Positions 9,462 to 24,494 of a DNA stretch of 38,802 nt are shown piece after piece. The stretch's first letter is position 1; every line of letters begins with the position of its first letter. Both the position numbers and the translations under genes were made by a program. The DNA comes from a virus, in IMG/VR virus record IMGVR_UViG_3300025886_000073, positions 1 to 38,802 of that record, one strand, 5' to 3'. The notes beneath the pieces are model-generated. The model worked only from the letters and a program-made list of their open reading frames with translations, did no database searches and was not told where the DNA came from.

Positions 9462-9929
9462 CTATACTTCGATTATTTTATATATTTTTGTATTTAATTG
9501 GTTTAAATCATTATGTTGTGTAAGTAAAACACAATTTCTATAATGTTGCCAATCAACTTGATATTTAGTATCTACTACACCACCATTTAACTTCTTAATT
9601 AACTCATTAAGGGCATTTATAGTGTATAAAGTATTGGATTCTTTTTTTCTATGTACCAATATAGTGTTTTCTGGAATGGTTTGTATATTTCCTTGGTCTA
9701 CATTATAAGTTACAACGTATTCATCTTTGCCCACGATCTCGAGGACAAACATTTTATTGTATATAATGGTGTATCTGCTTGTAATCTCTTCTAATAAAGA
9801 ATCTAAATTCTCTAAATTTGTGAAGGTACAAAATAACTTATTGTTCAAATCTCCTATGTTTTGGAATGACGTTATAACATCATAGTTCGTGTTATACGTA
9901 TTTGGAGAATTATTTAAAATCGTAGTCAT
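9462..9929 (-). CDS. Uncharacterised protein overlapping the DNA polymerase gene
   Basis: A 155-residue soluble protein with no signal peptide or membrane segment. The N-terminal 25 residues are Asn/Thr-rich and may be disordered. The remainder has strand-rich segments (MFVLEIVGKDEYVVTYNV), then a conserved-looking helix-and-basic stretch (HRKKESNTLYTINALNELIK) and a C-terminal IYKIIEV. Its start overlaps the end of the polymerase gene by 20 nt, implying translational coupling and a replication-linked role, but I do not recognise the family. A host-type promoter for gp32 begins immediately at its stop codon. Confidence 0.7.
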   Translation of the reverse strand: MTTILNNSPNTYNTNYDVITSFQNIGDLNNKLFCTFTNLENLDSLLEEITSRYTIIYNKMFVLEIVGKDEYVVTYNVDQGNIQTIPENTILVHRKKESNTLYTINALNELIKKLNGGVVDTKYQVDWQHYRNCVLLTQHNDLNQLNTKIYKIIEV

Positions 9930-11184
9930 AACCCGTTTCTTCTTTAATGTTTAATTTATATTTTATAAAAACTTCCCTAATCAACCACATAGTATCTTCC
10001 TCATCATCATCTACATCAAATAGAAACGAATCATAAGTATATAGTATTATTTTTGTTTTCTTTCCCTTCAATATACGAAACATATCCCACAAAACCAAAC
10101 AGTTAACGCTTGTTTCCAAATTTTGTAAAACATAATTAAATAGTTTTTGTGGGTTCATTTCACCCAAATTTTCTTTTCTATATATAAATCCAGATACCGG
10201 ACATTCTACAAACCCGTCGCTCTCAAATTTACGCCATATCTCTCCTACGTATTTCTCTATTTTTTGAAAGAACTCCAAATGTTTATAATTTGAGAAAACA
10301 CCCCCATATAACTGTTTGAAAGTAAGTTCTTTCGATTTTTTGTAATCCACTTTATATAAGGTAGCAAAATGAGCGTGAATATCATTAGTGGGAAACTCAT
10401 AATCAACAAGGCGAGCAGCCAAGCTAGGATGGTAAGCACTAATATCAATTTCCACAAGTTTGTTATTGCGAGGAATAAAACTTTTCCTACATCCATTTTC
10501 TTTGTTAAGTGCGGCATAATTTACGTTTTTAAATTTATTTGACGGTCTTGTTGTTGTTGTTTTTAAGTTGAACTGAGTGTGGACGTATTCACCGTCAACT
10601 GCGTGGAAGTATTTGCTGAAGGTGTCATTACATATGCGTATTCCACTTCGCTCGATAGCGTTGAATACCACGGATACTCTACTGTTAAAGAATTCATCAT
10701 ATTTTGTTTTTTCTATGTTAATATTCGCTTTTAGATCTTTAAAAATGGTCTCACACAATTCATAATGTTTAACAATTGGTATAATTGCGTTTAACTCTAA
10801 GTTATCTTTGTGTTTACGATAATATAAATCATGTGTTGCCGTTGTAGGTCGTATATACGTAGTAGGTGGGCGATTTATGTCGCTAAGAGCTTTGTTTAAG
10901 TTTGGGTAATAATGTAATAATTCTTTTTTATCTCTACAATATAATATTTCAAACTTTTCTAGCAAGTCGTTTATACGCGTGTTTAACGCATTTAAAGCTT
11001 CACTATGCGTAACACATACCATAAAGCCTTTAGTTGCTAAAATCGGTCTAATATACACTAAACTTACACGGTTTTGTGTTGGGTGTATGGTGTCATTAAA
11101 AGGTATTACCTCAATGAAAGCCTCCCTATAACTACTATTTATTAAAACCTTTAATTGCTCTTCGTCTTCTACTAACCAATACAT
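9910..11184 (-). CDS. Compact family A DNA polymerase
   Basis: A 424-residue PolA-type polymerase. The palm and fingers motifs are in order: the TTTTRPSNKFKNVNY segment (about 209-223) corresponds to the TGR...NLQNIP region. Motif A is VEIDISAYHPS, with catalytic D247. Motif B is KELTFKQLYGG, with K285, F289 and Y293 matching Pol I K758, F762 and Y766. Motif C is YTYDSFLFDV, with D385. H252 occupies the place of the Pol I steric-gate E710, and S386 replaces the glutamate of HDE. The N-terminal about 170 residues lack clear 3'-5' exonuclease acidic motifs. Typical T4-like phages use a much larger family B enzyme, so this may be the replicase or an accessory enzyme. A possible host-type -7 box precedes it. 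Confidence 0.85.
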   Translation of the reverse strand: MYWLVEDEEQLKVLINSSYREAFIEVIPFNDTIHPTQNRVSLVYIRPILATKGFMVCVTHSEALNALNTRINDLLEKFEILYCRDKKELLHYYPNLNKALSDINRPPTTYIRPTTATHDLYYRKHKDNLELNAIIPIVKHYELCETIFKDLKANINIEKTKYDEFFNSRVSVVFNAIERSGIRICNDTFSKYFHAVDGEYVHTQFNLKTTTTRPSNKFKNVNYAALNKENGCRKSFIPRNNKLVEIDISAYHPSLAARLVDYEFPTNDIHAHFATLYKVDYKKSKELTFKQLYGGVFSNYKHLEFFQKIEKYVGEIWRKFESDGFVECPVSGFIYRKENLGEMNPQKLFNYVLQNLETSVNCLVLWDMFRILKGKKTKIILYTYDSFLFDVDDDEEDTMWLIREVFIKYKLNIKEETGYDYDFK

Positions 11185-11220: not shown

Positions 11221-12087
11221 CTAGTATCCACTTTTTCTCGAGATGTTTTTTCTTATTGATGTCCCTACCTCATTGTTTAAGGGTACTTTGATTTTTGTTT
11301 TTTCCTCCCCCCCTATAAAAGGAATAAGAGTAGAATGTTGAGTAGGCTTATGGAATTTTCCTTCCATCATTACCCCTCTATTTGAATGAACATGGTAATA
11401 ACCAACATAGTTTTCTCCTGTTGGTATCAATTTTAATTCATTCCCGTTAGTATAAAAATAATTTGGGGATGATGATTTATAAAATTTACAAAATCTTAAT
11501 TTAAAGAATTCCTCAAATCCATACCATTTTAGGTTTGTAGATGTTTGTTTTGCTAAATTTTTATTAACTTTATAAACATCAATAGGATTGCCTGATATAT
11601 TCCAGTTTAAGTAGGATGGAGTATATAATTGGTATTGAGTATTTGGGTTTTCGTTTAGATAGTTATTATAAGTATCAACATCGATTTCTATATACTTTAA
11701 TTCATTGTTCTTCTTTAAGAAGTATCTTTGGTATTCTCCAGTATCGTATTCTTCTTTAGTTGGAAATACTATACTAGACATAGGAGAAGAAGCATTGCTT
11801 ATAGGAGAACCAACTGCACCTACATAAGCTGGGGGGAGATATGAAATATTAGCTTCTTCTGTTGTATAAGCCCCAGTTTTACCCGCTTCTACATCTTGGG
11901 CTGCATTATTTTCATTATTAGGGATTAATGGGTTGTTAGGTCCGTCTTGAGGTGTTTTACCACTAAAGTATTTACCATCAGAAGTTGAATAGTAATCACC
12001 GGTATATACCTCTCCGGTTGATGCTAAAAGATAGTCTCCAGTAGCAGTGTATAAATTGGGCGTTATTTGTGATAGAGGATAATACAT
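11221..12087 (-). CDS. Probable tail or baseplate protein with duplicated Tyr/Gly module
   Basis: A 288-residue protein at the end of the tail operon; its ATG overlaps the hub-amidase stop by one base, so it is likely a virion or tail-assembly protein. Two segments align with each other: residues 24-56 (TGEVYTGDYY...SGK...LIP) and 223-256 (TGENYVGYYH...EGK...LIP). Only the second copy carries H232, H234, H246 and H251, a cluster that could bind metal. The segment between them (about 57-110) is Asn/Pro/Ser-rich and linker-like. I do not know the family. A spike-tip or tail-fibre attachment role is possible because metal-binding histidines occur in phage spike tips, but this is inference. Confidence 0.65.
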   Translation of the reverse strand: MYYPLSQITPNLYTATGDYLLASTGEVYTGDYYSTSDGKYFSGKTPQDGPNNPLIPNNENNAAQDVEAGKTGAYTTEEANISYLPPAYVGAVGSPISNASSPMSSIVFPTKEEYDTGEYQRYFLKKNNELKYIEIDVDTYNNYLNENPNTQYQLYTPSYLNWNISGNPIDVYKVNKNLAKQTSTNLKWYGFEEFFKLRFCKFYKSSSPNYFYTNGNELKLIPTGENYVGYYHVHSNRGVMMEGKFHKPTQHSTLIPFIGGEEKTKIKVPLNNEVGTSIRKNISRKSGY

Positions 12088-15000
12088 TATAAGCTTCCTA
12101 TTTCCATTAACATTTCTAATATTTCTTTTTGTGGTAAAATATCACTTTTATCTGTTCTATAAGAACAATGAGTGTAAATACCAGGTTGTCCGTCCATTGC
12201 CATATTTGATTTCCTATTAGCTTTCGGGAAGAGTTCTTTATAGTTAGTTTTATTTAAATAAACCGGAATGTTAAATTTGGTTTTTAAATCTATGATTAAA
12301 GATTTAACTGTTGAAATTTGTTCTGGGGTATATTTTTGAAATCTTTCTTGGACATTAAATTTATTCACATACCTATACCCCTTTTCCATTTTTACTATAT
12401 TATTATTATCATCAACCATATATGGGTCTGCTATTTCATTTTCAGGTATTACTTTACCTGTCCATGCTTGCCAACCTTTATCCGTTTTGGAAAGTTTACC
12501 TAATGAAACTATTTCAATTCCTATACTTATTCTATTTAATCTATCAGTTCCTGGGGAAGATGCTAGATGTTTTGACCAATATTCTAAAGGAAAAACATGC
12601 TCATTAAAACCATTTCTATCTATATGGTAATGTGTAGCTAGTGGATATGTTTTTTTATTCCATCCTCTTATATCTCCAGCAGCATTTGTAACCCCAGCGG
12701 TATGGTGTAATACTATTTGGGTTTTCGTTGTTGCTTCTGGGACGTAAATTAAGTTTTGACATTTTTCTCTCCATTTATTTGAAAGGCTTGTATTATCTAA
12801 AGGTATACTTGTAGTTAAAGATACTCTAGGGGCATCTCCTTCTAATAATACAAAGTCTTCAGATTGTTGGTTTACAATATCCTCTACTACCCCACCAGTA
12901 AATGCCTCTAAACTTTCTTCTTTTGTTTTAGGTGTACTAATTGTTTCTAAAGAAGTAGACCAAGTATTATCTCCTATTTGATGGTTAACCTTTGAAATTA
13001 CAAAATCTAATGCTTTAGGATATTGAGCGGGGAGAAAACCCTGTCTTATTTTTAAACTATTATATATCCCAATACCTGATATTCCATCACACGTTAGTCC
13101 TAAAGAAGCAGGAATAAATCCTATTTTAGTTGATGGGGTACCAGTTGCAGCATATAACCCATTATCAATAATATTAACATAAGCTTTAAATGATTGTTTA
13201 CCTTGTTTAATAAATTCTGGATTTAAATGAAAATAATACCCATTTGTATCTAAAGTCCCATTAGCTTTACCTCTGAAACTTTGAATTAAATATCTAATAT
13301 AATTACTAGAAAATTTTTCTAATTCTTTTACTTCAGGTACAAGGGCTTTATCATTTATATCCTCAATTACATCTTCTACATATTCATGCCATTCGGTATT
13401 TGAATAATTATTTCCAGTAATAGGACAACTTTCTACATCTTTATGAACTTTAAAGGTTATACCAAACTTTGTTGATTTTCTTTTACTTCTTCTAAATGGA
13501 CCAAAATGGGTGTCAGTTTCTGAACTTTTAAAATGGTCCTTCATTTCATTAATCTGAGCTAGGGTTAATGGTTTATATATGTTATCACTAGGTTTAACTA
13601 CAATATTTTTGCTTTTATCTTCGGTTTTAGGGTCTTTTAAATCAAATTGATATTGATCTCTTAAACCTGAGTTCCAATTAGAAAAAGCAGTAGCATCATA
13701 ATTTTTAGTCGAAGAACCATTTGCTGTAGCCCCTATTGATATCATAGAAGAAAGTGAGGAATCAATTTTAGTTTTAAAGCTAAAATCTTGGACTATGTTG
13801 GATTGGGTTTTACCTGTTGTATCTCCTTCTTTAGGTAGACCATAACCAAATAGTTCAAAATTAGGCTTTTGTGTAAAAAATTCTTTAAACGAACTTTGTT
13901 CAATCCCCCTTATTTTATTTTGGTCTTGTATCGTAATAACACTATCGTTTACTAAGACAGGTTCTAAGTTAGGGATGTCACCTAATGCAGAATTAACACC
14001 ATTACATATATTTTGTATAAACTTAAAAAGGAAAAGATCACCCTTATCATTAGTATCTTTTTGAAGACACCCTGCTACAAAATCATAGTTAAGATATACA
14101 TTCATAATTTGACCATACATTATTGAATTATCCTGCCCCTCAACTACTACCCAATCTTTCATAGCCTTTATAAAAGACCAATAGGTTTTAACCCCGGTCT
14201 TTTTTGAAGACATCTCTGTTGATGAATTAATTGATATATTACTTGTAAATAAAGGTTTTACTAAGGCTACTTTTGGATCAAATGAAATTTGATTTGGGTA
14301 AATTGCCATTATATTAGACTTAACGTCTGTGTCTATACTTAACATACCAGTACCTGACATATTAGGGATACAGAATTGGTTAATTTTTCTTAATAGTTCT
14401 CCAAAGGTTAAATAGTAACCAAATTTATCAATATCAACCCCTTCTCCGTCATTTAGTCCTCTAATAGCACCTAATAATGCTTTATCCCCATCATCTTTTT
14501 TTAGGAGCCAATACATATTTAAATACTCACCATAACCCCACCACTTTTGTTTCCCTTTGGGGTCCATAATGTCTGTAAATAAATCATAAGCTAGTGGAGA
14601 TGAACCTGCATTGTTTACCACATTGGAGGCCATAGATGTAGGAAAATTTTGAAGGCCAGTACTATACCCATTTACAATCGCAGCTATATCTTCTTCTGTT
14701 TTTACTTGTTGAGGAAGGTTTACTTTTAAGGATTCAATAACATCCCCTACTGACATTAATGTTAGTGTAATAGAATAACTTCCATCTTGTTCAAAACTCC
14801 AATTAAAATTACTAACTTTTCCTATAAACCCATCATAATTACCACTATATAATCCTCGATATCGTTCAACATCCTTAGTTAATTTTCTAAAGTTATAAGT
14901 TTTATAATCTTGAAACCATATATCCTCAGTTATAGTATTACCCATTTGTTGGATTTCATCATTATTATTTAAGAACTTATCCCAACCCCATTCAAGTATC

Positions 15001-15629
15001 ATGGTATATCCTAACCTAATATATAATAACTCAATAAGTTCAAATTGAAACTTATTATAACATTTAAGTTCGACTGTTGCTTTTCTTATTGAACCCCTAT
15101 TTAAACAATCTACCTTAGCACTAATAAGACCAGGAGGAGGAACAAAACCTTGCTCTTTACCCCCTAAACCATATGATGATGCTTCATTCCATACTTGACC
15201 TGTTGTAGAAATTCCACTTCTTTGACTATACCCTCCACTATTTCCCTCTCCTTCTTGGTTTTTATTAGAGGGAATGACTGTTGATATTGTATTAAATAAT
15301 ACAGCTTTAGTAGCTAGTTTATTACCTAAAAAGTCAGCTGGTTTTGGAAATCCTATATCTTTTAATCTAGATTCTCCTGTAGTTCTTTCAGTCTCCTCAA
15401 TGTCTTTTAATGTTAAAGTTGGTTTTGTTTTTTTAAGTTCAACTAACATTTCATTTTTAGTTTGAACCCTAACGGATGATGCTAATTTTAACCAAGCATT
15501 CCTGTTGTTTTGTATTTGAAGCTGTTGGGGTGTTCTAGGTGTATCAAACCCAGAACCCGCAGTTTGTTGTCTAATTTGGAGTTGTTTGTCTACAAATTCT
15601 TTAAATGATTCTCCTATTAATCTTCCCAT
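12087..15629 (-). CDS. Large baseplate hub protein with C-terminal N-acetylmuramoyl-L-alanine amidase domain
   Basis: At 1180 residues the longest gene here. The C-terminal about 210 residues are an amidase_2/PGRP-type domain that would cut peptidoglycan during DNA injection. It begins with IVLHHTAG (H975/H976), followed by THYHID, SIGIEIVS and THCSYRTDKSDILP (H1154, C1155, D1160, D1163), which supply the expected zinc ligands. The N-terminal about 900 residues include conserved-looking segments such as VPPPGLISAKVDCLNRG and LYIRLGYTMILEWGW near 165-210. The location between the LysM-like gene and the last tail gene indicates a hub or cell-puncturing role. T4 instead fuses a lysozyme into gp5, so this would be a functional analogue using a different enzyme. 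The hub assignment comes from context, the amidase from motifs. Confidence 0.85.
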   Translation of the reverse strand: MGRLIGESFKEFVDKQLQIRQQTAGSGFDTPRTPQQLQIQNNRNAWLKLASSVRVQTKNEMLVELKKTKPTLTLKDIEETERTTGESRLKDIGFPKPADFLGNKLATKAVLFNTISTVIPSNKNQEGEGNSGGYSQRSGISTTGQVWNEASSYGLGGKEQGFVPPPGLISAKVDCLNRGSIRKATVELKCYNKFQFELIELLYIRLGYTMILEWGWDKFLNNNDEIQQMGNTITEDIWFQDYKTYNFRKLTKDVERYRGLYSGNYDGFIGKVSNFNWSFEQDGSYSITLTLMSVGDVIESLKVNLPQQVKTEEDIAAIVNGYSTGLQNFPTSMASNVVNNAGSSPLAYDLFTDIMDPKGKQKWWGYGEYLNMYWLLKKDDGDKALLGAIRGLNDGEGVDIDKFGYYLTFGELLRKINQFCIPNMSGTGMLSIDTDVKSNIMAIYPNQISFDPKVALVKPLFTSNISINSSTEMSSKKTGVKTYWSFIKAMKDWVVVEGQDNSIMYGQIMNVYLNYDFVAGCLQKDTNDKGDLFLFKFIQNICNGVNSALGDIPNLEPVLVNDSVITIQDQNKIRGIEQSSFKEFFTQKPNFELFGYGLPKEGDTTGKTQSNIVQDFSFKTKIDSSLSSMISIGATANGSSTKNYDATAFSNWNSGLRDQYQFDLKDPKTEDKSKNIVVKPSDNIYKPLTLAQINEMKDHFKSSETDTHFGPFRRSKRKSTKFGITFKVHKDVESCPITGNNYSNTEWHEYVEDVIEDINDKALVPEVKELEKFSSNYIRYLIQSFRGKANGTLDTNGYYFHLNPEFIKQGKQSFKAYVNIIDNGLYAATGTPSTKIGFIPASLGLTCDGISGIGIYNSLKIRQGFLPAQYPKALDFVISKVNHQIGDNTWSTSLETISTPKTKEESLEAFTGGVVEDIVNQQSEDFVLLEGDAPRVSLTTSIPLDNTSLSNKWREKCQNLIYVPEATTKTQIVLHHTAGVTNAAGDIRGWNKKTYPLATHYHIDRNGFNEHVFPLEYWSKHLASSPGTDRLNRISIGIEIVSLGKLSKTDKGWQAWTGKVIPENEIADPYMVDDNNNIVKMEKGYRYVNKFNVQERFQKYTPEQISTVKSLIIDLKTKFNIPVYLNKTNYKELFPKANRKSNMAMDGQPGIYTHCSYRTDKSDILPQKEILEMLMEIGSL

Positions 15630-20784: not shown

Positions 20785-21087
20785 CTAATTATAACTTGTT
20801 TTACCTTTATATGGTTTAGATGCAGAAGCAAATTCTGGGGTATTAACTTTACCATCGGCCGAAATTAAAGTTTTATTACCTTTATTTCCTTCTTTAGCAC
20901 GTTCCATTTCTTTTTTCCGATTATCATAGTGGTTATTCATCTCAGATAAAGTAAACTTACGGAGCCATATAGGCATATTATATATAGTATGCCAGTCATA
21001 CCCTCCATTACCATGGAATACTATGCTGTGAATTGATTGGAATAAAATTTTTCTATATTGGGGGGCTAGATCAGGCGTCAGGCCAAA
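20785..21087 (-). CDS. gp51: gp51-like tail-assembly frame, entered by frameshift from gp26
   Basis: An open frame of about 100 codons whose protein-like sequence begins well before its only ATG (at 20976). The upstream part reads GLTPDLAPQYRKILFQ, then HSIVFHGNGGYDWHTIYN, and continues into MPIWLRKFTLSEMNNHYD. I see no ATG, GTG or TTG in that part, and the frame is closed by a TAG at 21100-21102. It overlaps the 3' end of the gp26-like gene and lies +1 (or -2) to it, with a T7 run at the overlap. It therefore looks like the second half of a frameshifted gp26-gp51 protein. The C-terminal half is charged and probably flexible. The tape measure gene follows. The gp51 name rests on position and a remembered resemblance to cyanophage gp51, so it is tentative. 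The independent-start alternative is a 63-residue protein from 20976. Confidence 0.7.
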   Translation of the reverse strand, partial: FGLTPDLAPQYRKILFQSIHSIVFHGNGGYDWHTIYNMPIWLRKFTLSEMNNHYDNRKKEMERAKEGNKGNKTLISADGKVNTPEFASASKPYKGKTSYN

Positions 21088-21799
21088 AAAAGTTAAGTCC
21101 TATAGGGACAGAAACTTCCTCCCCTCCATCAAGCGATACAGTCATATCTAAATCGGGAGCTATCTCCCTAACATGATCTCTGAATGCTCTAGCATCTTTT
21201 GCTAAGAAATAATTATCTACAAAGTCTCTGATTGATTTTACTTCATCATCACCATCTACTGATGTAATCATGTGTTTTAATCTTGTGGTTAATTCCGGGG
21301 AGGAATTAGGAGAAATCTTTTTTAATCCTTTTAATTCTCTTTCTATTTTTTTAGTATCATTACCATCTAAAAGTTTAAAACCTAAAACTGTACCTGTGTT
21401 TTCTAATTTATAGGTAAATGAATTATTTGAATTTTCTAAAGCTGAATAATTAATATTTTTTGGTTTTATCTCTGTTAAATCTATAGATTCTTCTTTACCT
21501 CCTATATTTACAATATATTCCTTACCATACCCTAAAATACGAGTAGCTACGAATAGTGCATTTTTATCTCCTGTGTGTAAATCCGATATTTTTATATCTT
21601 TGTTTATGATTACCGCTTCTAGTAATTTATCTAATACTATGCCCTTTTGGATATAAGCTTGATTAGTTAGTATATCTTCTTCTTTAGCAGTCATATACTT
21701 AATTTCAACTTTACCGCTTGATAAAGGGTGATCTTTTAGATACAATAAGCCTTTTGATGGCAGTTCTACTTCTTCGGTTGGGAATTTAAATTCACTCAT
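21071..21799 (-). CDS. gp26: gp26-like baseplate hub assembly / tail chaperone protein
   Basis: A 242-residue protein. It starts FKFPTEEVELPSKGLLYLKD and continues GKVEIKYMTAKEEDIL, the pattern of the T4 gp26-type base plate family (LPSKG...T..EE..L). The C-terminal half is helical (IRDFVDNYFLAKDARAFRDH) and ends LNFFWPDA. It sits between the tube gene and the tape measure gene, where other tailed phages encode tail-assembly chaperones, usually made as short and frameshifted long forms. Here the last codons contain a T7 run (21085-21091) where a shift would add the gp51-like frame. It has a terminator upstream and no exact late motif, so its promoter is unidentified. Confidence 0.75.
   Translation of the reverse strand: MSEFKFPTEEVELPSKGLLYLKDHPLSSGKVEIKYMTAKEEDILTNQAYIQKGIVLDKLLEAVIINKDIKISDLHTGDKNALFVATRILGYGKEYIVNIGGKEESIDLTEIKPKNINYSALENSNNSFTYKLENTGTVLGFKLLDGNDTKKIERELKGLKKISPNSSPELTTRLKHMITSVDGDDEVKSIRDFVDNYFLAKDARAFRDHVREIAPDLDMTVSLDGGEEVSVPIGLNFFWPDA
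21085..21091 (-). other. Candidate slippery site (T7) for gp26-gp51 frameshift
   Basis: On the coding strand AAC-TTT-TTT-TGG in the gp26 frame. Skipping one T (+1) or slipping back two (-2) on the T run enters the gp51-like frame and reads FFGLTPDLAP. The gp26 frame stops five codons after the run. Confidence 0.55.
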
Positions 21800-21910: not shown

Positions 21911-22399
21911 TTAGAAATTTAGTATACAATAATCTGGTTGTACTGTAATTTGTAATTCTACAGCAGCACTTTCATTATCCCAATTATAATCCCCAAAGGT
22001 AGCCTCTGTAATCATAGCACCTTTAATAATCCATTCTGAAACGATATCACCTACAGGTCCTAATACGTTCATAGTTAAATCTTTCTTATAGAAATCACTA
22101 TATCCATCTCTACCTGTTACTGATTCATGGTGTAATCTAACCCATTCCATTACAGCTTGTGCCCCACTTGGAGTAATTGGATCAAATAATGTCATTTGAA
22201 TTGTGTTCCAAAGTGTTTTACCTTTAACGTATCTTGCAACGTTAATGTGATTCAATTGAACTGAACCTTGGGTTAATGAAACAGCTCCCATACCTTTAAT
22301 TTGGTATGAAGGGATTCCATCTACATACAGTATAAACCTATTTTGTTGTTTTGGTTCAAATGCTGTATAAAATATTTCGTTCGGGTCTAATACTGCCAT
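21911..22399 (-). CDS. gp19: Tail tube protein, gp19-like
   Basis: A 162-residue major tail tube protein, the same length class as T4 gp19 (163). It starts with the N-terminal region, then RFILYVDGIPSYQIKGMGAV, the VQLNHINVARYVKGKTLW strand pair, the helix AQAVMEWVRLHHESVTG, and the closing strands ESAAVELQITVQPDY. These match the single-domain tube fold shared with contractile tails. It lies 40 nt after the sheath gene with its own late motif, and a strong terminator follows, consistent with high, separate expression of an abundant virion protein. Confidence 0.92.
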   Translation of the reverse strand: MAVLDPNEIFYTAFEPKQQNRFILYVDGIPSYQIKGMGAVSLTQGSVQLNHINVARYVKGKTLWNTIQMTLFDPITPSGAQAVMEWVRLHHESVTGRDGYSDFYKKDLTMNVLGPVGDIVSEWIIKGAMITEATFGDYNWDNESAAVELQITVQPDYCILNF

Positions 22400-22439: not shown

Positions 22440-24494
22440 TTATTCAGGAAATGTTGCTCCAGTTGGTAAAACATTGAAATCTAAAATTACAAATTCAGCT
22501 GTTTTAGTTGGTTGTAAATAAATTTGGCCTACTAGCTCATTTCTATCTATAACGTCTGGTGTATTGTTTGTAGCATCCATTACTACTTTAAAGGCATACA
22601 ATCCTTGTCTTTGTTGTACTGATTCTAAGTATGGGTTTACATTTGCTAAGAAGTTATTTCTTGTTGCATTTGTATTTTGTTCAAATACTAAGTTATCTGA
22701 TACTTGAGAAATATATCCTTTAAGAGCAATTAACAATCTACGTACATTTACTCTATCTAAAGCACTTGCTCTTTTCTGTAAAGTTTTCTGTCCAAATACT
22801 ACAACTCCACTTCCTGGGAATGTTGCAATTGGATTTACATTTGCTTCATATAATGTATCTCTATTTCCAGATGTTAATTTTCTTTCTGCTCTTACTACAC
22901 TTCCTAAAGCTCCTCTAATTAGACCTGCTGGTGCGAACCATGGGTCTGATGAAGCATCTGTAAATGCATAAACTGCAGGAATATATGTTGAAGCTGGTGC
23001 CCAAACTGTTTGTCCGGTTCCGGCATCTACCGTTTGTAACCACGGCCAATAAGCGGCTGCATATGAGCTATCATATTTTGTTGCTTCTGTTGTAACTGCG
23101 TTGATTTGCGAGTTATACGCTGCTACATCGATTACTGCTAAACAATCTGTTCTACCTTGTGCTAATGATACTAACCTTGTAACAGTATTTGAATGTTGTT
23201 GTGAGTTTAAACCAGGTGCTGTGATTACATTGAATTGATAATCATCAGAATTACTTAGTAAGTTAATGGATTGTGTATAATTATCCATTATTAAACCTTG
23301 TATATTACCTGTTGTTATATTTTCATTAAATTTAACTGGTGAGTTTGTTGCAGTAACTTGATCTCCAGTAGCTCCAGAAAATGATCCTGAACCTCCATTT
23401 ACTGATATGTTAGGTAAGCTAGATGTAAATTCACTTTTTGCTTGACCATTATTATCGAAATATTGAGGTGTTGGTTTATTAACATTTTCTACATATATGT
23501 AAGCACTTCTTTGTGGGTAATTACCTAATGTTTTAACATAGTAATCAGTTCCATCTTGTGCTACTTCATAATAAGTATCTCCAATTACATTCGAAATATA
23601 ATTTGGAGCAGTTGGGTCTAATGATAAGTTGTTATATGTTTCTAATACTGTTTTTGATGTTGCAGTATCATTTCCTCTTCTAACTAATAATGAAAATTGT
23701 CCCGAAGCTGTATTTACTGAAGCTACTTCCCATCTAATGTTATCCTTTGTACCATTGGTTAAAGTTCCATTTGCTCCATCTACTACTTGAGAATTGTTCA
23801 TATTAACACCCTCAGAAATAGTTTTAATAGTAAATGAACCAGTATTTTGTATATCTGAATCTGTTAATGTAATTGTTAAGTCTTCACCATTTGGTTTTGT
23901 AGCACCTAAAGATTCCGAAGTGAAGTTAATAACATCACCTACTTCATAAGCAATACCTTCTGTTGTTATAGTAATGGAAGAGATTGTTGATACTGTTGCA
24001 TCTATATCTTGTGCTGCTATCTCAATTGATGCTATTGCTGAGTTACCTAATCCACCTGCTACTGGTACGTTATTTACTACCCCACCTGTAGAACCTGTTA
24101 TGTTTATTACTGGGGATAGATTAATTGATGATAATAATGCATCAACTCCTGTTACTAATCTACCTTCAGTTATTGAACTAGGGATAGAAGAAGAAGCGCC
24201 ATCGAAGCTTCCAGAAACTACACGAGTCATTAATAATGATTCACCACCTTGGGCAAAATAATTTCTTGCGGATATAGAATTTAAGTAAGTATAAAATTGA
24301 GATCCACTTTCTACTGTACTTCCAAATATTGCTTCATATTGAGAAAAAGTAGAAACTGCAGTTGGTATTCCAACTGGTCCTTTAGTAGCGGGTCCAATAA
24401 TAGCTGCACCATAAGTTACAGGTCTAGCACCAATAAAAGATTGGTCGTTTTCCCTTGCTAAGACACCTGGAGATAAAAGAGTTTGCTCTGCCAT
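22440..24494 (-). CDS. gp18: Contractile tail sheath protein, gp18-like
   Basis: A 684-residue sheath protein, close to T4 gp18 (659). The N-terminus LLSPGVLARENDQSFIG, then PVTYGAAIIGPATKGPVG and FSQYEAIFG, is the conserved sheath start. The C-terminal domain has SALDRVNVRRLLIALKGYIS, FEQNTNATRNNFLANVNPYL and a final strand EFVILDFNVLPTG that joins neighbouring subunits. The middle (about 110-440) is a variable, Ser/Thr/Gly-rich protruding region. A late motif lies 28 nt upstream, and the tube gene follows. Confidence 0.94.
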   Translation of the reverse strand: MAEQTLLSPGVLARENDQSFIGARPVTYGAAIIGPATKGPVGIPTAVSTFSQYEAIFGSTVESGSQFYTYLNSISARNYFAQGGESLLMTRVVSGSFDGASSSIPSSITEGRLVTGVDALLSSINLSPVINITGSTGGVVNNVPVAGGLGNSAIASIEIAAQDIDATVSTISSITITTEGIAYEVGDVINFTSESLGATKPNGEDLTITLTDSDIQNTGSFTIKTISEGVNMNNSQVVDGANGTLTNGTKDNIRWEVASVNTASGQFSLLVRRGNDTATSKTVLETYNNLSLDPTAPNYISNVIGDTYYEVAQDGTDYYVKTLGNYPQRSAYIYVENVNKPTPQYFDNNGQAKSEFTSSLPNISVNGGSGSFSGATGDQVTATNSPVKFNENITTGNIQGLIMDNYTQSINLLSNSDDYQFNVITAPGLNSQQHSNTVTRLVSLAQGRTDCLAVIDVAAYNSQINAVTTEATKYDSSYAAAYWPWLQTVDAGTGQTVWAPASTYIPAVYAFTDASSDPWFAPAGLIRGALGSVVRAERKLTSGNRDTLYEANVNPIATFPGSGVVVFGQKTLQKRASALDRVNVRRLLIALKGYISQVSDNLVFEQNTNATRNNFLANVNPYLESVQQRQGLYAFKVVMDATNNTPDVIDRNELVGQIYLQPTKTAEFVILDFNVLPTGATFPE

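Follow-up and report, generated by a model that had tools for sequence, protein, structure and literature searches.

Frameshifting in the tail assembly chaperone (TAC) genes of several groups of T4-like phages was reportedly described by Vladimirov, Gautam and Davidson in 2022 (Virology 566:9-15), T4 itself being said to have separate genes 26 and 51. To judge from the title of that work, as cited in PRFect (PMC10885494), its authors identified the TAC genes of T4-like phages. Frameshifted TACs are widespread, produce two soluble forms that help in tail assembly, and make use of -1, -2 and +1 shifts, phage Mu using -2 and the haloarchaeal HSTV-2 very likely +1 (PMC5009743). The second TAC frame is open in all Vandenendeviridae genomes examined, and the same paper calls the poly-T sites of T4-like phages -1 signals (PMC12846349). 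Here we describe a locus in a 38,802-nucleotide stretch of viral DNA (IMG/VR record IMGVR_UViG_3300025886_000073; hereafter the window), which we consider very likely, on comparative sequence evidence, to be the TAC of a T4-like contractile phage in which a minority of ribosomes slip by +1 at AAC_TTT_TTT_TGG to yield a long form, TAC-NC, while most yield the short form, TAC-N. More generally, the ribosomes of a large group of T4-like marine phages appear to skip forward by one base at a fixed stretch of seven Ts.

The locus sits in a T4-type module with terminase, portal, protease, major head protein, sheath and tube genes, and consists of two overlapping frames with the tube gene on one side and the probable tape measure gene on the other (Table 1). 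The latter lies downstream of TAC-C across a gap of 23 nt; no Pfam or PHROG match of its own was found for this candidate, and the gene at the equivalent place in the Flavobacterium phage immuto carries the annotation tail tape measure protein. Elsewhere in the window, a 424-aa ORF (9910-11184, minus strand), perhaps a split or divergent polymerase, aligns with the 1445-position DNA polymerase profile phrog_17 over positions 957-1204 alone, and a 1180-aa protein downstream of the tail genes (12087-15629, minus strand) has a weak amidase match at 951-1041 (phrog_3088, E 5e-4).

Table 1. Tail genes and recoding features of the TAC region, in window coordinates.
Feature	Coordinates	Strand	Basis
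TAC-N (242 aa), short chaperone form resembling gp26	21071..21799	-	ORF, phrog_150, profile match, AlphaFold model
Frameshift site AAC TTT TTT TGG	21083..21094	-	Sequence; TTT TTT T in 156/170 plain-site +1 junctions
TAC-C, start-less C-terminal extension in the +1 frame, GGC 21084-21082 to stop 20787-20785	20785..21084	-	Open frame, dN/dS, profile match
Predicted TAC-NC fusion, 337 aa (P0001)	20785..21799	-	Translation with one +1 step
Probable tail tape measure protein, 792 aa	18383..20761	-	Position and length
Tail tube protein (gp19-like), upstream neighbour of TAC	21911..22399	-	phrog_4542, E 5.7e-22
Tail sheath protein (gp18-like)	22440..24494	-	phrog_23, E 1.2e-73; Phage_sheath_1

The gp26-like frame ends in ...IGLNFFWPDA*, and its 3' end is overlapped in the +1 (equivalently -2) frame by a second frame that is open on the minus strand from 21099 to 20785 (104 codons). 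As a sequence-only reading of this DNA had described, the overlap falls at a run of exactly seven Ts (T7; 21091-21085), read in the gp26 frame as TTT TTT TGG (AAC TTT TTT TGG CCT); TTTTTTTGGCC occurs once in the whole window. The first ATG of the second frame lies at 20976-20974, separated from the slip site by 36 residues (GLTPDLAPQYRKILFQSIHSIVFHGNGGYDWHTIYN), and no ATG, GTG or TTG was found in the window between the upstream stop of this frame and that ATG. The claim that no start codon serves the upstream part is thereby borne out; the frame has two further ATGs, however, so that this one is not, as had been stated, the only one.

This first, start-less part of the second frame is under purifying selection at the protein level. 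Between the gp26 stop and a conserved MP motif, the +1 frame has a dN/dS of 0.30 in the window clade (80 distinct sequences) and of 0.41 in the group of phage Mel-JY01 (60 sequences), without stops in either, and the other two frames of the same stretch have values of 1.1-1.6 and are mostly closed by stops. Some relatives have L, I or F in place of the YNMP methionine, so that this residue is not a conserved start. We regard it as extremely improbable that the second frame is a separate small gene, whether initiated from ATG 20976 or from a rare start codon, with its upstream part a by-product; TAC-C does stand as a separate gene with its own ATG in two relatives, L264 and L268, and database annotations give short ORFs from such ATGs, but selection acts on the 36 residues ahead of the ATG, the would-be start methionine varies, no ATG, GTG or TTG could serve the conserved part in the window and in many other loci, and a separate gene gives no reason for the slip site to be fixed.

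IMG/VR and phage records were searched with TAC-N or TAC-C as the query. The first two rounds identified 103 distinct junctions with the second frame open in the +1 phase; wider searches brought the +1 class to 174 distinct junctions, in every one of which the second frame stays open in the +1 phase. Because this frame opens 26 nt or less before the gp26 stop in 33 of the initial 103, only a few codons are left there in which the shift can occur. The start-less overlap and the T-run site, for which the sequence-only reading had proposed a check on homologous loci, are thus both kept across the 174 junctions, with the site nearly fixed. That reading had also raised an indel error in the T run. 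Homopolymers are prone to such errors, but a single continuous gene split in this way has practically no credibility here and is refuted by many independent assemblies and by cultured phages: the same phase is found in 174 distinct junctions from many samples, also at sites that hold no long run, and in the cultured phages immuto, Mel-JY01, RM378, SP-15, LIS04 and GXN1.

At the slip site itself, the plain-site set of 170 +1 junctions (a 171st entry, TTC CTT T, is L268, in which the frame is lost, and is not counted) comprises 156 TTT TTT T, 10 TTC TTT T, 3 CTT TTT T and 1 TTT CTT T (immuto), the next codon being TGG in all but two, which have TAC (L243/L245). Four remote +1 members differ (LR756508, TTT CTA; GXN1, TTC TTT CGT; LIS04, TTT TTT AGT; SP-15, TTT TTT CAC), and Rhodothermus phage RM378 retains TTT TTT TGG. 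The second codon of the site is TTT in 106 of 108 diverse clusters, TTT making up 84% of Phe codons. The base preceding TTT TTT T is C, G or A and is T in 0 of 156, though T ends 59% of codons for the residues found there, and it is again never T among 99 clusters that differ by more than 15%; these site counts treat related sequences as separate and are not probabilities, the clusters being nevertheless diverse. Elsewhere in these genes in-phase TTT_TTT_T is avoided (3 seen against 14.3 expected outside the site in 77 non-redundant loci).

The T run would also suit slippage of RNA polymerase on T7, with the fusion then made by normal translation of the altered mRNA; transcriptional slippage can occur at T runs, and nearly all of the window clade has T7. 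However, junctions with an interrupted run show no change of phase (TTTCTTT in immuto, TTCTTTT in 10 cases, TTTCTATTC for LR756508 and TTCTTTCGT for GXN1), which favours ribosomal over transcriptional slippage, and T runs never reach eight even though NNT would be the commonest preceding codon, so that we hold this explanation to be very unlikely. Folding of the region gave no conserved RNA structure: RNAalifold reached -3.8 kcal/mol for the window clade and found none for the other group, and MFE z-scores averaged -0.3 to -0.8. Nor did we find a Shine-Dalgarno-like stimulator close to the slip site, and a useful rate of ribosomal shifting is therefore assumed. A conserved purine-rich GAG GAG element (21116-21127, minus strand, and relatives), largely restricted to the window clade, stands some 26 nt upstream of the slip codon and is too distant for known Shine-Dalgarno stimulators. 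Codon -10 is GAG in 58 and GAA in 8 of 108 clusters, GAG being 18% of the Glu codons in gp26, and the window's own version of the element is GGG GAG GAA.

In the ribosomal reading that we prefer, most ribosomes would terminate at the gp26 stop and release TAC-N. In a minority, tRNA-Phe paired with the second TTT in the P site (predicted slip codon 21088-21086), with TGG waiting in the A site, would move by +1 onto the TTT at 21087-21085, and translation would resume with GGC in the +1 frame to give TAC-NC, with which 22 other predicted fusions align along their length. By analogy with lambda gpG and gpGT, TAC-N may form a coat on the tape measure protein, and tail tube subunits may be recruited by the C domain of TAC-NC. 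The direction of the shift was assessed by asking, at each junction, which P-site codons within the permitted stretch have a tRNA able to pair again after a move of +1 or -2. Among the 174 junctions, re-pairing after +1 is possible in 174 and after -2 in 161; 13 permit +1 only, including the TTC_TTT_TGG clade and LR756508, and none permits -2 only. In eight TTC_TTT_TGG junctions (L253-L261) the sole possible event is TTT to TTT by +1. A -2 ribosomal slip would make the same fusion with one extra residue (LNFFFGLTPD), the junction peptide of the window being predicted to end LNFFGLTPDLAPQYR after +1 and LNFFFGLTPDLAPQYR after -2. The window is among the 161 junctions at which TTT to TTT re-pairing by -2 could occur, the tail chaperone of phage Mu is known to slip by -2 (PMC5009743), and related T4-like phages slip backwards by one; against this, a tandem -2 shift has poor P-site pairing and the 13 junctions open to +1 alone, with none open to -2 alone, favour +1, and we consider a -2 slip unlikely. 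The +1 direction in the window has strong comparative support, short of proof.

In one branch the slip site has been lost. L264 and L268 group with immuto in one clade (support 99/98); at the site L264 has TTC TTG TAT and L268 has TTC CTT TGG, the +1 frame is closed in both, and both carry TAC-C as a separate ATG-started gene in another frame (2214-2534 in L264). The 188-kb L264 contig contains a single TAC-N, with no second TAC-N or TAC-NC gene found. These phages manage with no fusion, so that the fusion can be dispensed with, a point that counts against our best explanation. Relatives with a start codon of their own, which the sequence-only reading had taken as evidence against a frameshift, therefore do exist, but only as this nested pair, and in them the slip site was lost when the start codon was gained. 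The programmed frameshift proposed by that reading is supported by the conserved phase, the conserved slip site, the selection on the start-less part and the loss of the slip site from the relatives that possess a start codon.

In other relatives the second part follows in the -1 phase, e.g., in cyanophage S-PM2 (TCT TTT TTC GCA TAA), other cyanophages, phiM7, AS-zj, QD01, OLIVR5, X1, Atu_ph07, PA5oct, CM1 and LR756511. A T precedes the two Phe codons (TTT TTY) in 90 of 90 junctions in the -1 phase (80 more contigs having been added), a count in which the scan scored the next codon pair for LR756511, whose actual site GGT TTT TTC fits, and from which Vibrio phage D504 (TCA CTT TTC), which does not fit TTT TTY, was excluded. 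The window falls outside this class, which has T_TTT_TTC or T_TTT_TTT: its site is C_TTT_TTT_T and its second frame is +1. The flanking bases agree with these directions, as T_TTT_TTC permits two tRNAs to re-pair one base back, and V_TTT_TTT_T (V, not T) permits one tRNA to move forward by one and spoils the -1 heptamer. Synechococcus phage S-SCSM1 (L275, 1290-1504) breaks the base rule, having T_TTT_TTC yet its second part in the +1 frame, owing either to a sequencing indel or to a true exception, i.e., a switch of direction.

The same Phe-Phe position thus seems to serve for either -1 or +1 in T4-like TACs, and the TAC-N tree requires the direction to have changed at least twice on well-supported branches, a result to be read with long-branch cautions. 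It seems to us somewhat more likely than not that TAC frameshifting in the T4 superfamily changed during evolution between -1 and +1 at a single homologous Phe-Phe site, with the direction set by the flanking bases (T before TTT TTC or TTT for -1; a base other than T before TTT TTT, with T after it, for +1), and that the weakening to CTT_T in immuto and the loss with a new ATG in L264 and L268 were later steps in one branch. A literature search, the contents of Vladimirov et al. (2022) aside, turned up no earlier account of +1 shifting at a TAC of this group, a negative that counts only weakly towards novelty; both the simple direction rule and the use of +1 at V_TTT_TTT_TGG look new. Having -1 and +1 at the same position of the same gene in a large natural set makes the rules of direction readable from evolution and testable by single-base changes.

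The identity of the two parts was established through a chain of profile comparisons. The window TAC-N matched phrog_150 (baseplate hub) with an E-value of 7.6e-9, a match shared by 23 of 23 members, and window-clade TAC-N matched cyanophage gp26 (E 4e-7), which in turn matched the T4 gp26 profile (E 1.4e-18) and was also linked to the N part of T4 gp51. For TAC-C, the +1-class and -1-class profiles matched each other (E 2.5e-7), and the -1-class profile matched residues 207-244 of T4 gp51 (E 3e-5, probability 73%). Direct hhalign comparison of the small window-clade profile with T4 gp26 and gp51 was not significant, neither part had a Pfam family, and a PDB sequence search with the fusion profile gave no match up to E 1. 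A match of S-RS29 to the TAC-C query was dismissed as chance, the gene being unrelated by position. The AlphaFold model of TAC-N (pLDDT 91.7) has BFVD matches to T4-like hub and hub-assembly proteins; the first of its 66 PDB matches is the HK97 TAC 2ob9, which is not significant (E 1.1, probability 0.33). Given the chain to T4 gp26 and gp51 and the place between tube and tape measure, we conclude that this is the TAC of a T4-like phage. The suggestion that gp26- and gp51-like proteins act here as joined tail-assembly chaperones therefore holds as to the TAC link, but the match of the 104-codon frame is limited to the C-terminal part of T4 gp51, and as T4 gp51 is itself the N+C form, the arrangement is more aptly described as TAC-N with a TAC-C extension.

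Immuto infects Flavobacterium and one relative was found in a Flavobacteriales MAG; the hosts are probably Flavobacteriales, a group in which we know of little recoding work and for whose probable phages the +1 site is thus of interest. The cultured relatives immuto and Mel-JY01 are annotated with no fusion, and the database annotation of immuto 2-6A (L081, 5839-5949) gives a 36-codon ORF from an internal ATG in which more than half of TAC-C is missing. With homologs of the second part truncated or omitted in cultured relatives, the annotation of T4-like phages could be corrected on this basis.

Compared with described systems, the window locus resembles lambda gpG/gpGT (Xu, Hendrix and Duda 2004) in having a short form and a C-terminal extension by frameshift near the 3' end of a gene between those for tube and tape measure; the lambda shift, however, is -1, unlike the +1 predicted here. 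The TAC of the Vandenendeviridae (Pseudomonas phage Adele) likewise has a poly-T site at the 3' end of TAC-N, but this is a different phage family, and its site, GTTTTT, is given as -1 (PMC12846349). T4 gp26 and gp51 are homologous by profile to the N and C parts, but the T4 forms come from separate genes. The cyanophage and proteobacterial relatives would shift by -1 at T_TTT_TTC, whereas the window group would shift by +1 at V_TTT_TTT_T. In the release factor 2 gene (prfB), a +1 shift occurs at CUU_UGA, the P-site tRNA moving from CUU to UUU, and the immuto site CTT_TGG shares this slip codon. Unlike in prfB, the waiting A-site codon of the TAC sites is a sense codon (TGG, or TAC in L243/L245) rather than a stop codon, and there is no close Shine-Dalgarno-like stimulator; the TTT_T of the other +1 members would correspond to a prfB-type slip with better re-pairing.
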